A DNA stretch of 52,511 nucleotides, from NCBI GenBank assembly GCA_028696185.1, contig JAQVHL010000013.1:1-52511 (forward strand). Direction: 5' to 3'. The DNA is from Halothiobacillaceae bacterium (lineage in GTDB: Bacteria; Pseudomonadota; Gammaproteobacteria; Halothiobacillales; Halothiobacillaceae). Positions 7,541-39,862 of the stretch are shown piece after piece (within the stretch, counting starts at the first letter, position 1; each line of letters begins with the position of its first letter). Made by a program: the position numbers and the translations under genes. Under the pieces are notes generated by a model. That model did no database searches. It had not been told where the DNA came from and saw only the letters and a program-made list of their open reading frames with translations.

Positions 7541-7610
7541 CAGGCCGTTGAAAATGGCTCTTCAGCGGTCTGTTCTGGCCCCGTCGCGAATTCACTTCGC
7601 TTTGATGCGA

Positions 7611-7641
7611 GTTAAAAAAGGGCAGAAAAGCCTTTTTTAAC
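7611..7641 (+). terminator. Rho-independent terminator after the WYL gene
   Basis: GTTAAAAAAGG (7611-7621) and CCTTTTTTAAC (7631-7641) form an 11-bp perfect stem around a 9-base loop. The A and T runs in the two arms would let it work in either direction. It lies 70 bases after the WYL stop codon. Confidence 0.6.
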
Positions 7642-7699
7642 ATTCTCCTCTGCGCAGGCTTCCCCCGTCAGCAGCAGGGAGGATGTTTGCGCACCTCTG

Positions 7700-7980: not shown

Positions 7981-8250
7981 GCTTTGGGTTATTTTTCTTG
8001 CACAAGCAAGAAAAGTGACTCGCCCGCTTGCGTTGACGCCTGTTTGAAGAGGCAAACATCAAGGCGGGCGAAAAAGGGATCCAACGGTTCTTGAAAGCGG
8101 CTTTAACTGGCTGTTGAACGACTTGATCTTTAGCAAGCGGACAGGCTTGCGCACTGTTTCGCCCGCCTCATGTAACGCACTTCGGACCACCCGAATTGCA
8201 AGCGCGGGCGCCCACTGTCGTCCAACAAACATTTATTTTGTAAACACCCT
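7702..8250. mobile_element. Candidate non-autonomous element bounded by 15-bp inverted repeats
   Basis: AGGGTGTTTACAAAA (7702-7716) is exactly inverted as TTTTGTAAACACCCT at 8236-8250, enclosing 549 bases without a credible gene. The right half also folds: TTTTCTTGC/GCAAGAAAA (7993-8014), TGTTTG/CAAACA (8041-8058), GCAAGC/GCTTGC (8133-8150), and an outer stem AGGCGGGCGAAA/TTTCGCCCGCCT (8062-8168). I see no clear target-site duplication and no transposase. A miniature transposon-like element or a composite of structured repeats are the leading readings. Confidence 0.5.
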
Positions 8251-8283
8251 GACAGGCGGGATGAACGCCCGTTTGTCCGTCCG

Positions 8284-8874
8284 TCAGCGTGTCGGTGGCG
8301 CTTCCTCGCCCCGGATACGCATATCCCTGACCCGCCATTGCCCGGCCTCGTCGCGGCTGAGTTGCAGACTTGCATACTGGTGCAGCGTGGCGCCGGGGGC
8401 CAGCTTTCCATAGCGTTTTTCAAGGGTCTCGCTCAGGCGGCCTTCGCGGGCGGCGTCGCTCAGTGGGCCGTGGCGCAGGGCCAGGGCCAGGCGTTCGGGT
8501 TCGTTTTCGGAGAGCGCCTGTTCGATGATCTTGACCGCCAGCTCCGTATCGACCAGGGCGGTCAACTCATAGGCGATGCGCATGTCCCAGCCGTTTTCCG
8601 TGCGTTGTTCGGATTCGACGTGTAGGGCTCGCAGGGCGAGCAGGCCATCCAGCGGCGCGGCCTGCTCGATGGCCTGTTTTGCGGCGGCCAGCCGTTGCGG
8701 ATCGGGGCCCGGGGTATAGGTGGTCAGAAGAAGGAAAGCGGCCAGGGCGAACAGGGCGGCCCCCCAACGGCCGAGGCGTTGGGGGGCCGCGGGTCCGGGC
8801 TTCGGCCAGACACGGGCGTTCGGGCGAGCCGGCTGTCCCGCGAGGGGACGCCGGTTCGCGGGCTCAGCCCGCAC
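8284..8874 (-). CDS. Unknown protein with one membrane anchor
   Basis: A 196-residue protein not recognised as a named family. Residues about 1-34 are basic and Pro-rich. A single hydrophobic segment follows at about 36-53 (WGAALFALAAFLLLTTY), then a helical domain of about 140 residues (LAAAKQAIEQAAPLDGLLAL) ending RVRDMRIRGEEAPPTR. The topology suggests a cytoplasmic N-terminus with the C-terminal domain in the periplasm. The start is GTG and overlaps the preceding TRAP binding-protein gene by 11 bases, so it is probably translationally coupled to it. The context suggests an accessory of that binding protein, but nothing in the sequence proves it. Confidence 0.75.
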   Translation of the reverse strand: MRAEPANRRPLAGQPARPNARVWPKPGPAAPQRLGRWGAALFALAAFLLLTTYTPGPDPQRLAAAKQAIEQAAPLDGLLALRALHVESEQRTENGWDMRIAYELTALVDTELAVKIIEQALSENEPERLALALRHGPLSDAAREGRLSETLEKRYGKLAPGATLHQYASLQLSRDEAGQWRVRDMRIRGEEAPPTR

Positions 8875-27434: not shown

Positions 27435-27467
27435 AAAAGCCGGCTGTCGCAAGACAACCGGCTTTTT
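27435..27467 (+). terminator. Rho-independent terminator with GCAA tetraloop
   Basis: AAAAGCCGG, one mismatch, TGTC, GCAA loop, GACA, CCGGCTTTTT forms a 13-pair stem and T tract (27435-27467). It closes the ccoS/microprotein transcript. Confidence 0.9.
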
Positions 27468-27503
27468 CACGTCAGCGGCCTGGATGAATTAGGCCGCGAC
27501 TTC

Positions 27504-27783
27504 AGAGGGTGTTTACAAAAAAGTTCTGCAAACAATATCAGCGCCGGACGAAGGATTCCCAGCTCCCCTTGGAGGTGCCATGGCCGGGGGCGTGGAGACC
27601 GGGTGAAAAGGCCATGGATGGCCCTTTCAGTCCCGCTACAACGGGATGTTGTGCATCCTGTTCTTGCCCCCTTGGGGCATCCATGCCCCAAGCCCTGACG
27701 GGTGCGGCGCTCGAATTTGGGACGGCTCGGTCGGAGCGGCCCCGGCCATGGCTTGCCCGAAGGGCGCCTCCGTGTGGGTGCCC
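27504..27783 (+). repeat. Dispersed structured repeat, copy 2
   Basis: Second copy of the 7700-7980 repeat in the same orientation, upstream of dnaB. It keeps AGAGGGTGTTTACAAAA, the GGCCATGGATGG hairpin, the second hairpin (AACGGGATG/CATCCTGTT, where the one change leaves a G-U pair) and the third hairpin unchanged (CTTGGGGCA/TGCCCCAAG). Similarity fades after about 27783, and I find no inverted copy of the end motif on its right. It fills most of the 520-base gap between the microprotein and dnaB. Confidence 0.85.
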
Positions 27784-37704: not shown

Positions 37705-39336
37705 TCAGCGGATTTGGGCGCCGCCGGACTTCCAGTAATTGATGGTTTTCTGGATCAGCATGCCGCCATCGGTATCGATGTTGGTTTGCGGTGTGTCACC
37801 TGGGCCGAACATCAGTCCTACGACATGCGCTGCGGCAACGTCGTCGATCTTGCTGAAAAGAAGCTCGACCCGGTTGTCCTTGTAGTGCTGGTAGGTGTTG
37901 TCTTGCCAGGAGTTGCCTACGGGGATCTGCCACATGATGGTGGGTTTGCCGAGGGTTTCGGACAGGGTCTTGCTCCAGCTCAAATAGGCGGCAAACTTCT
38001 GTTCATCCCACCAACGGAAGTGTTGCCCAAGTACGGAGGAGTAATAGCCCGCATCGCGGTCCGAAGGGTCGGTGGCAATGAAATCCCCCTCACTTGCCCC
38101 CAGCGCGCTCATGAACTTGGCAACCTTTTCGGCATCGCCATTGGCTTCGTAGTTCCAGGGCGACGTGTGCAGGCCGACAGCCGAGTTGGGTGCGTACTTG
38201 CGGGCCATGGTGATCATGCAGCGGGCGTAACCGGAGACGGTGTCGGCATGGGTTTTCGCCGGGCAATCGGGGTTACTCTCATTGACCTTGGCCGGGATTG
38301 TATTCGGATCACGATTGGTGGATCGGATGAATCCCCACAGATCAGGTTCGATATGCAGGATCGTGCGATTGGTGCCGACCTTCTGCAGGAAGAACCGGTA
38401 ATCGTTGAAGTAGCGCTTCATTATGTCGCTGTTATTGAGGGCATCGATTTCTTCTTGGCCCTCAGCGCCGCCAACCAGATGGCGAATTGAGTAATATGTC
38501 CAGTAGCTCAATTGCGGGTGCGGTTTGTTATCGTAGGTAAGCTTTCCGAGATTCTCGATAAAGTCACCGGGATATTGCGATCCGGGCGGGCGTTCGTTCC
38601 ATTGCCAGCATCCCCACCACTTGCCGCAGGCGTCGTCGGCTTTGCATGAGGTCATGCAGGCGTCGACCGGGGCGACGTTGTTGATATACTGGTATTGTGC
38701 GTCGAAGGGGGCTGTTTTTGCGCTCGCGCTATTAATGCTGCCAATCAGTACCTTGTTGCTGCCCATGAAGCTCTTGTTGGTGCAGGCACCATCAGTCGGG
38801 TTGAGGTACCAGCGTTGAGCAGCTGATGATAGGTCCGGATTCTGGCGGATGAGCGCGCCTTTGTCTTTGTTAGCCGCTGTTACAAACTTGCCGGAGTGTG
38901 CGGACTCGATCATGAACGAGCCTGTGCTCGTCTGGGTCAGTTTCCATTGTTGATTGGCATGGCCGCTGTAGGACCATTGCTTGATGGGGGTGTCGTCCTG
39001 TGTCGACCATCCCGACACATCAAGTGATTTGTTGCTGTGCACCGGTCGAATGGTCCAGGTGCCGTCCCCGAGATTGCTGAGCGTCCATTGCTGGTTTGTT
39101 TGATTGTTGTCCGTCCACTGAATGACGTCTGCGCCGTCTTTTTTGGATTTTCCTGAAACGTCGAGTGCCATTCCACTGGCTTCATTGATGATCTTGTATG
39201 TCTTGCCGCTTTTCGGGAGGTCTGTGCAGTTCGAGGCATATGATACGCAGGAGATCAATGATCCAATGAGCAGGGCGCTTATGCGCATGACTGTCGGGGT
39301 TGCGCTTTTTTGATCCTTGAGGTGGTTTTTTGCCAT
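37705..39336 (-). CDS. Secreted ricin-type lectin with C-terminal hydrolase-like domain
   Basis: A 543-residue exported protein. Residues 1-34 form a long signal sequence (core VMRISALLIGSLISCVSYA). A beta-trefoil ricin-type lectin domain spans about 38-165, with three Q-x-W repeats (NQQWTLSNLG, NQQWKLTQTS, AQRWYLNPTD). A Cys-rich linker follows (DACMTSCKADDACGKWWGCW). The C-terminal 300 residues contain ILHIEPDLWGF, GLHTSPWNYE and TIMWQIPVGNSWQD, which look like strand ends of a glycosidase-type TIM barrel with a candidate acid in HIEPD. I cannot assign a glycoside hydrolase family. AAGGAG lies 6 bases before ATG 39336. Sixty-base blocks I counted are 53-57% G+C, lower than neighbours (65% in trpB), suggesting acquisition. 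Confidence 0.85.
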   Translation of the reverse strand: MAKNHLKDQKSATPTVMRISALLIGSLISCVSYASNCTDLPKSGKTYKIINEASGMALDVSGKSKKDGADVIQWTDNNQTNQQWTLSNLGDGTWTIRPVHSNKSLDVSGWSTQDDTPIKQWSYSGHANQQWKLTQTSTGSFMIESAHSGKFVTAANKDKGALIRQNPDLSSAAQRWYLNPTDGACTNKSFMGSNKVLIGSINSASAKTAPFDAQYQYINNVAPVDACMTSCKADDACGKWWGCWQWNERPPGSQYPGDFIENLGKLTYDNKPHPQLSYWTYYSIRHLVGGAEGQEEIDALNNSDIMKRYFNDYRFFLQKVGTNRTILHIEPDLWGFIRSTNRDPNTIPAKVNESNPDCPAKTHADTVSGYARCMITMARKYAPNSAVGLHTSPWNYEANGDAEKVAKFMSALGASEGDFIATDPSDRDAGYYSSVLGQHFRWWDEQKFAAYLSWSKTLSETLGKPTIMWQIPVGNSWQDNTYQHYKDNRVELLFSKIDDVAAAHVVGLMFGPGDTPQTNIDTDGGMLIQKTINYWKSGGAQIR

Positions 39337-39380
39337 TTCGGACTCCTTGGGAAATGCTGAGTTCATTCCAGAAACAACAG

Positions 39381-39862
39381 GGATTTGAAAAGCACTCCGT
39401 GTTCTTTTCAATCCGACTCGTCGCGGTATGTTTCCGTGACGAGTCCTGGCCGCTTGTTTAAAAACGCATGGGTGCGTTTCTTCTGCTTATTCGTGTGCGC
39501 TATGCACCCGAATGCGGCACCACGCTTCAAATACAGCTGTAATTGAAGCATGCGCGGAACATCCCTGCTTCGCATTACTTGTTCGCCGAAAGAATATTTC
39601 AGCGCCCTGTGAGCAGGTTGTTGAAAAAGGGCTCCCTGCTCTTTTTCAACCCGGCCTATCGCGGAACGCGTCCGGATAAACTACCTGAATCAAGTCGTTG
39701 CACACTTGATGCTCACAGGTCGCTGAAATATCCATCCGGGTATGGGTTTTACTGGCATACCCTTATATCCTGCCTGCATTTTCCGGCTCTTGGCGGGCTC
39801 GCGCTATAGGTCGATGCTGATTTGCTCATAAGAAATATGGATATGGTATAGGGATATCCCTA
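39381..39862. repeat. Gene-free, palindrome-dense region
   Basis: Between the ricin-lectin gene and gloB I see no credible gene in about 760 bases, but many dyads: 39381-39414 (GAAAAG..CTTTTC core), 39415-39445 (GACTCGTCGCGG/CCGTGACGAGTC, 12 pairs with one G-U), 39462-39479 (AAACGCA/TGCGTTT), 39524-39549 (GCTTCAA-A-TACAG/CTGTA-A-TTGAAGC), the large inverted repeat 39594-39731, GGGTATG/CATACCC (39738-39762) and the 14-base palindrome TAGGGATATCCCTA (39849-39862). Blocks I counted are about 50% G+C. The first hairpins would lie in the 5' leader of the ricin-lectin mRNA. Confidence 0.7.
39594..39731. repeat. 138-bp inverted repeat with 22-bp arms enclosing three hairpins
   Basis: Arms at 39594-39615 (starting ATATTTCAGCG) and 39710-39731 (ending CGCTGAAATAT) are complementary at 21 of 22 positions. 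Inside lie GTTGAAAAAGGGC/GCTCTTTTTCAAC (39620-39650, one G-U), CCGG..CGCG-GAA-CGCG.CCGG (39651-39675) and TCAAGT/ACTTGA (39690-39709). The fold is a long stem with a three-way array of hairpins. It could be a structured RNA, a miniature mobile element or a single-strand DNA recombination site. I see no flanking target duplication. Confidence 0.75.

Follow-up and report, generated by a model that had tools for sequence, protein, structure and literature searches.

In many bacteria, the regulator CsrA/RsmA governs metabolism, biofilm formation and motility; RNAs that carry many binding hairpins restrain it in turn. The sequences it recognizes have been summarized as the CsrA consensus RUACARGGAUGU, the CsrB repeats CAGGA(U/A/C)G and the RsmE loop ANGGAN (PMC7652899). 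Regulatory RNAs have also been linked to mobile DNA: the miniature transposable elements (MITEs) QMITE1 and QMITE2 of Coxiella give rise to small RNAs (PMC5896051), and the authors who described the 5'tnpA small RNA of IS200 noted GGA sites in it as possible CsrA sites (PMC12594629). In the open-access literature, which omits most subscription papers, we found no MITE carrying CsrA sites.

The locus described here lies in a stretch of 52,511 nucleotides from a Halothiobacillaceae bacterium, referred to as the window. The initial annotation had reported a 138-bp inverted repeat at 39594–39731, closed by 22-bp arms and folding as a cloverleaf, and had suggested a structured RNA, a miniature transposable element or a folded-DNA recombination site. 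The sequence bears out the pairing of the arms (39594–39615 and 39710–39731) at 21 of 22 positions, and the stretch is, as stated, without any gene of the window's main set. The nested pairing also proved to be beyond chance: the MFE of the 138 nt was −66.4 kcal/mol on the plus strand, where shuffled sequences averaged −33.8 (z = −9.2), and −65.1 kcal/mol on the minus strand, where they averaged −36.4 (z = −7.8), and none of 200 shuffles reached this fold stability. The 138-bp unit is single in the genome, two other loci having just its first inner hairpin in common, and the hairpin-rich stretch begins upstream of the annotated repeat, at about 39378. Among the relatives of the first inner hairpin, this hairpin is the first of five consecutive hairpins (h1 to h5). 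The inverted repeat spans the place where decayed copies of a five-hairpin mobile element of about 150–165 bp meet in tandem, and the 'cloverleaf' is a by-product of these tandem copies. The earlier interpretation as a whole is thus partly supported.

Three copies are arranged on the plus strand. Copy A1 (39378–39449) is truncated; it starts at 39378 with the left end CAGGGATTTGAAAA and retains h1 (39385–39411) and h2 (39415–39445). In an nhmmer search with a profile HMM built from ten elements, all from other genomes, 39381–39442 matched model positions 4–67 (E 1.5e-4). Copy A2 (39450–39609) is decayed but of full length, from h1 to h5: the covariance model R1, built from twelve elements, none of this genome, aligned 39450–39609 with model positions 1–161 (54.3 bits, E 6e-15; the covariance-model E-values are rough), and nhmmer matched 39456–39609 (E 4.7e-9). 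The right end of A2, ATATTTCAGCGCCCTG at 39594–39609, is the left arm of the annotated repeat. By the duplication rule of the family, TGAG at 39610–39613, a degenerate YTAR, occupies the 4-bp target-duplication position between A2 and the following copy. This copy, B (39614–39710), begins with the left end CAGGTTGTTGAAAAA (39614–39628) and is without h4. Its h1 (39620–39650), h2 (39657–39678) and h3 (39689–39710) are the three inner hairpins of the initial annotation, which exist as described but with limits that are refined here. Positions 39614–39710 matched model positions 1–99 with nhmmer (E 2.2e-11), and R1 matched 39614–39772 (44.7 bits, E 4.9e-12), the last third, corresponding to h4 and h5, fitting poorly. 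After CTCA at 39712–39715 stands an end-type repeat, CAGGTCGCTGAAATAT (39716–39731, plus strand), which is the annotated right arm and is either the left arm of h5 of copy B or the left end of a further copy. A right-end PWM trained without this genome ranked 39716–39731 third and 39609–39594 fourth among 104,992 window positions. Since the left arm is the right end of A2 and the right arm is the end-type repeat after CTCA, the closing stem bridges neighbours, and the cloverleaf is lost as a stand-alone 138-bp unit: the arms that close it are the terminal repeats of copies lying side by side. The suggestion, raised by one locus (L019), that an element had inserted into a pre-existing hairpin was dropped, the arms being family ends. 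A 96% match to 39718–39741 in another genome (G018) lies inside an apparent nadD coding sequence, judged by translation, and was taken as chance.

A further decayed copy, which retains h1 and h5 around a shortened middle, is present on the minus strand at 7541–7647 (R1, 37.8 bits, E 5.9e-10); weak signals of end-like repeats were seen near it at about 8236–8251 and 8415–8430. At 27440–27734, weak model matches of about 17 bits on both strands may represent a remnant or chance hairpins. Element copies in tandem, as in the window, were seen in a second genome (L012 and L222, G037:C106).

Members of the family start and end with CAGGnTGTTGAAAAA, and their h5 consists of the end repeat in palindromic form. 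They are flanked by 4-bp direct repeats of the form YTAR, with C or T preferred at the first position, T at the second, A at the third and A or G at the fourth. The 4-bp flanks were identical in 36 of 81 copies, compared with 9.6% when the flanks were permuted. In one genome (G004), an element lies between genes reading as spoT and ridA, and two others (G013 and G001) have the same genes without the element. The comparison of occupied and empty sites proposed in the initial annotation was therefore achieved as presence and absence at spoT–ridA; a base-exact empty site was not obtained there, the spacer being too diverged. The ends, the duplications and this presence/absence show mobility. The terminal repeat is common to the MITEs, to four IS elements (L105, L098, L079 and L122) and to a partial IS in this genome. 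The same ends and duplications bound IS5-family (NF033581) transposase genes in Methylophaga, Sphingopyxis and Bradyrhizobium, and Massilia has a diverged version of such an element. This genome carries an IS5 transposase gene at a contig edge, 58% identical to its Methylophaga counterpart, with the end CAGGCCGTTGAAAAA and TTAA. These ends identify the elements as MITEs belonging to an IS5-type transposon and, being shared, suggest that an IS5-family transposase mobilizes them in trans. The miniature transposable element of the initial annotation is thereby upheld, with terminal inverted repeats, target duplications, copies in multiple genomes and, in this one, a transposase with the same end. 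An IS701 transposase was considered as the mobilizer and discarded, being absent from six genomes; the IS in L105 proved to be IS5-family. The GGA hairpins described below are absent from the IS5 elements tested.

Several observations on related or neighbouring repeats are recorded here. In one locus (L179, G000:C98, 849–1100), the IS5-type element of this genome adjoins the apparent start of a Tn3-type transposase gene. Many other MITEs (L057–L174) are bounded by the same CAGGnTGTTGAAAAA ends and YTAR duplications; they were seen in Pseudomonas, Nitrospira, Desulfobacterota, Spirochaetes and others, often have one long hairpin and mostly lack ANGGA loops. Several copies in one genome (L187, L188, L192 and L193, in G024) contain an extra 15–30 bp directly before h5, with TTTGTTTTAACTTGGC- or TTGCATTAACAGGC-type repeats, which suggests slippage at this position. 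In the upstream flank of L004, a different repeat of about 140 bp abuts the MITE; it occurs at about fifteen places in G001 and at a few in relatives.

The covariance-model search that the initial annotation had proposed recovered both window copies, copies across the genome and relatives. With a model free of window sequence, about 20 element copies were found in this genome, from 50 matches at E ≤ 0.1, of which 25 reached E ≤ 1e-4, some of these overlapping or on both strands of one place; reverse-strand matches of about 25–45 bits stem from palindromes and were excluded from copy counts. In scans that scored at most seven places per genome, mostly in draft assemblies, the element was carried by 48 of 369 genomes of the class sample (38 of 272 genera) and by 46 of 398 genomes of the phylum sample, many of which belong to other classes. 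Matches were likewise obtained at single loci with the titles Nitrospiria and Deltaproteobacteria, and none in a plasmid collection.

We then considered the constraint on the interior. In a model-fitted alignment of 59 copies, all 47 modelled pairs had changed on both sides, which provides the compensatory changes that had been called for, and 94.5% of cells were paired; the covariation score was 0.698, against 0.197 for shuffled and at most 0.155 for slid alignments. Because this alignment was fitted to the structure, a fit-free mismatch test was added, in which stems were located by Watson–Crick pairs alone and all mismatches were penalized equally. On the h1-to-h5 strand, deduplicated within genomes, A·C mismatches outnumbered G·U by 100 to 20, and in h2–h4 by 66 to 9 (p 8e-12, a value that exaggerates independence, since the copies have common ancestry); A·C was in excess in 33 genomes and G·U in 6. 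Consensus elements of 18 genomes gave about twenty A·C and zero G·U. Within genomes, substitutions were balanced (147 G>A against 160 C>T, and 135 A>G against 160 T>C), and a spectrum this symmetric excludes that a simple mutational bias between the strands produced the A·C excess. What reads as A·C on one strand is a G·U wobble on the other, so the strand on which the mismatches are tolerated, and which is therefore under selection, is the one read from h5 to h1; selection probably acts on an RNA of this strand. Single-stranded DNA with tolerated G·T wobble would give the same strand bias. The h5-to-h1 strand, hereafter the RNA strand, gave the more stable fold in 42 of 51 genomes. Among the window copies, B was equally stable on both strands and A1 was stabler on the non-RNA strand.

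The loops are also strand-specific. On the RNA strand, a GGA loop was found in 103 of 120 detected h4 hairpins and in 142 of 155 h1 hairpins, and was rare in h2, h3 and h5; the complementary loop motif was almost absent from h4 (1/120) and uncommon in h1 (12/155). Defining a strict site as an ANGGAN hexaloop on a stem of at least three pairs, we counted 1.18 per element on the RNA strand and 0.019 on the other, with a background in all the fetched DNA of 0.038 per 160 nt. All strict hexaloops lay in h4 (117) or h1 (73), and 179 of the 190 were closed by C–G. They occurred at least once in 45 of 51 genomes and, in the genomes outside model building, numbered 121 on the RNA strand versus 1. Both h4 and h1 were strict in 54 of 161 elements, and the two sites are spaced by 91–95 nt. 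The h4 loop sits on at least fifteen different 4-bp stems, and some copies read GUACAGGGAUGUAC. A csrA gene was present in 30 of 32 carrier genomes checked, including this one; the other two, both draft assemblies, gave no match. With compensatory changes in every modelled pair, a G·U/A·C strand bias and conserved loop motifs, the family behaves as the structured RNA that the initial annotation had offered as one option, and its best reading is as a candidate mobile CsrA-binding RNA element. In the window, the strict site is confined to A2, where h4 carries a C–G-closed AGGGAU hexaloop (39561–39566, minus strand); degenerate sites remain in B, as AGGGAG in the h1 loop (39632–39637, minus strand; CsrA-type ANGGA), and in A1, as a weaker CsrA-type site, ACGGAG, in the h1 hairpin (39395–39400, minus strand).

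We consider it probable that the copies arrayed at this locus are decayed forms of a MITE with five hairpins, whose RNA cargo has a predicted CsrA-binding hairpin pair. An IS5-family transposase acting in trans would move the element of about 150–165 bp into YTAR targets and duplicate them; the cargo would be RNA rather than protein. The h5-to-h1 strand, which is the minus strand of the window, folds as five hairpins, with h4 and h1 displaying C-[ANGGAN]-G hexaloops, and the identity of the motif suggests that CsrA/RsmA binds these two loops, probably as one dimer bridging both. The element RNA might be transcribed from neighbouring genes or from an unrecognized promoter, and could either titrate CsrA like CsrB/RsmZ or put the adjacent transcript under CsrA control. 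The mobile family, its conserved hairpins, the strand-specific constraint and the CsrA-type loops on one strand are thus shown by the sequences; IS5-type mobilization, transcription, CsrA binding and either effect are inferred.

As for genomic context, the array precedes a gene for a secreted ricin-B-type lectin (37705–39336, minus strand; ATG at 39336, SD AAGGAG at 39348–39343), which lies downstream of it on the RNA strand, so that the sites of A1, A2 and B are in sense orientation. The protein matches Pfam RicinB_lectin_2 (E 5.9e-35); the ricin-B-type domain is on its N-terminal side, and about 300 C-terminal residues are without a Pfam match. A search for sigma-70 promoters recognized none, either in the window or in the element scanned. 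The orientation of copies relative to neighbouring genes was not significantly biased (35 vs 22 upstream, 28 vs 34 downstream). With neither a promoter nor a significant orientation bias, no firm choice can be made between a decoy and a cis element, and the decay of the window copies argues against assuming a function there.

The findings were weighed against other explanations. An ordinary MITE would have hairpins that are DNA palindromes, kept by template-switch correction or by cruciforms formed in transposition, with no RNA function. The terminal repeats and YTAR duplications, the many restored pairs among within-genome copies and the occurrence of other MITEs with the same ends as one long hairpin all agree with this; yet DNA-level correction is strand-blind, whereas the inner hairpins show the A·C excess of 66 to 9 under a symmetric mutation spectrum, and the GGA loops are confined to one strand and two of five hairpins. 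We regard this explanation as unlikely. The RNA-strand evidence in itself names no partner, and a MITE-borne structured RNA might serve another RNA-binding protein, mimic a ribosome-binding site, or act as a terminator or insulator; the G+C stem of h1, flanked by A- and U-runs, would be compatible with this explanation. A partner other than CsrA is nevertheless quite unlikely, considering the C–G closure of nearly all ANGGAN hexaloops, the fixed spacing of the two sites and their agreement with the published CsrA/RsmE site (PMC7652899); a Shine–Dalgarno mimic would have no use for the A that stands two positions ahead of GGA, and a terminator scan found no terminator at h1.

A local role was also considered, in which the array is retained in the 5' region of the lectin gene as a leader for CsrA control of that gene. 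The three ANGGA sites lie in sense orientation upstream of its SD sequence and ATG, but the copies are decayed to one strict site, no promoter was found in the window, and copies elsewhere have no significant gene-orientation bias. As the reason for the array, this role seems distinctly improbable, and it is compatible with, rather than exclusive of, the CsrA-binding MITE that we favour. The initial annotation had envisaged a cloverleaf or a folded-DNA recombination site; a functional structure of this type, closed by a stem of its own, would account for the paired arms and the z-score of about −9. However, both arms are family end repeats, A2 stops exactly at 39609 and B starts at 39614, and the genome has no second copy of the 138-bp unit. 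Nothing was found in favour of a recombination site, and we hold this possibility to be very remote.

Returning to the MITE with CsrA-type hairpins, we lean slightly towards the wider view that it is a widespread selfish element whose sole cargo is a CsrA-binding RNA, supplying genomes with mobile decoys, or with CsrA sites that act in cis, by the dozen. If so, the element would rewire or parasitize a global network of post-transcriptional control, in Pseudomonadota and also outside this phylum, its conserved hairpin pair making it a ready-made vehicle for CsrA sites. An RNA cargo would also account for a MITE interior kept by compensatory change, and comparison of occupied and empty sites would make the evolution of the Csr network directly testable. 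The A·C versus G·U mismatch test offers a cheap discriminator between RNA- and DNA-level selection on palindromic repeats.

Finally, we compared the element with known systems. Searched against Rfam, the window gave nothing at the gathering score and nothing credible below it; the CsrB and RsmY families had no match in eight element loci or the window, and in none of 19 carrier genomes did a match to the RsmY model exceed the cut-off. Four genomes gave RsmY matches below the threshold, and these were rejected: the best rests on a terminator hairpin, and only one of the loci also has a weak element-family match, elsewhere in the locus. QMITE1 and QMITE2 resemble the element as MITEs tied to small RNAs, but QMITE2 has direct repeats of 7–9 bp, and CsrA is not mentioned in that report (PMC5896051). 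The IS200 5'tnpA RNA is likewise a structured regulatory RNA derived from an insertion sequence, but it is a transposase mRNA leader rather than a MITE, and its CsrA binding was not shown (PMC12594629). The outer stem does not belong to a single unit, as that of a stand-alone cloverleaf would. With CsrB/CsrC and RsmX/Y/Z, the element shares one-strand GGA-loop hairpins and more than one site per RNA, and the sequence and structure features of a CsrA/RsmA-binding RNA were found together with a host csrA, binding being predicted; unlike these RNAs, it has just two strict sites at a fixed spacing, is present in multiple copies on a transposable element, and lacks an Rfam match and a recognized promoter. 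Of the MITE features tested, terminal repeats, the YTAR duplication and occupied and empty sites were all found, and the short, non-coding, dispersed copies with NF033581-type terminal inverted repeats resemble IS5-family MITEs. The interior of the element sets it apart: five conserved hairpins, two of them with CsrA-type loops, are subject to strand-specific constraint and do not derive from any of the IS elements examined. The MITE is thus of a known kind, and its conserved hairpin interior with CsrA-type loops appears to be unusual and new.
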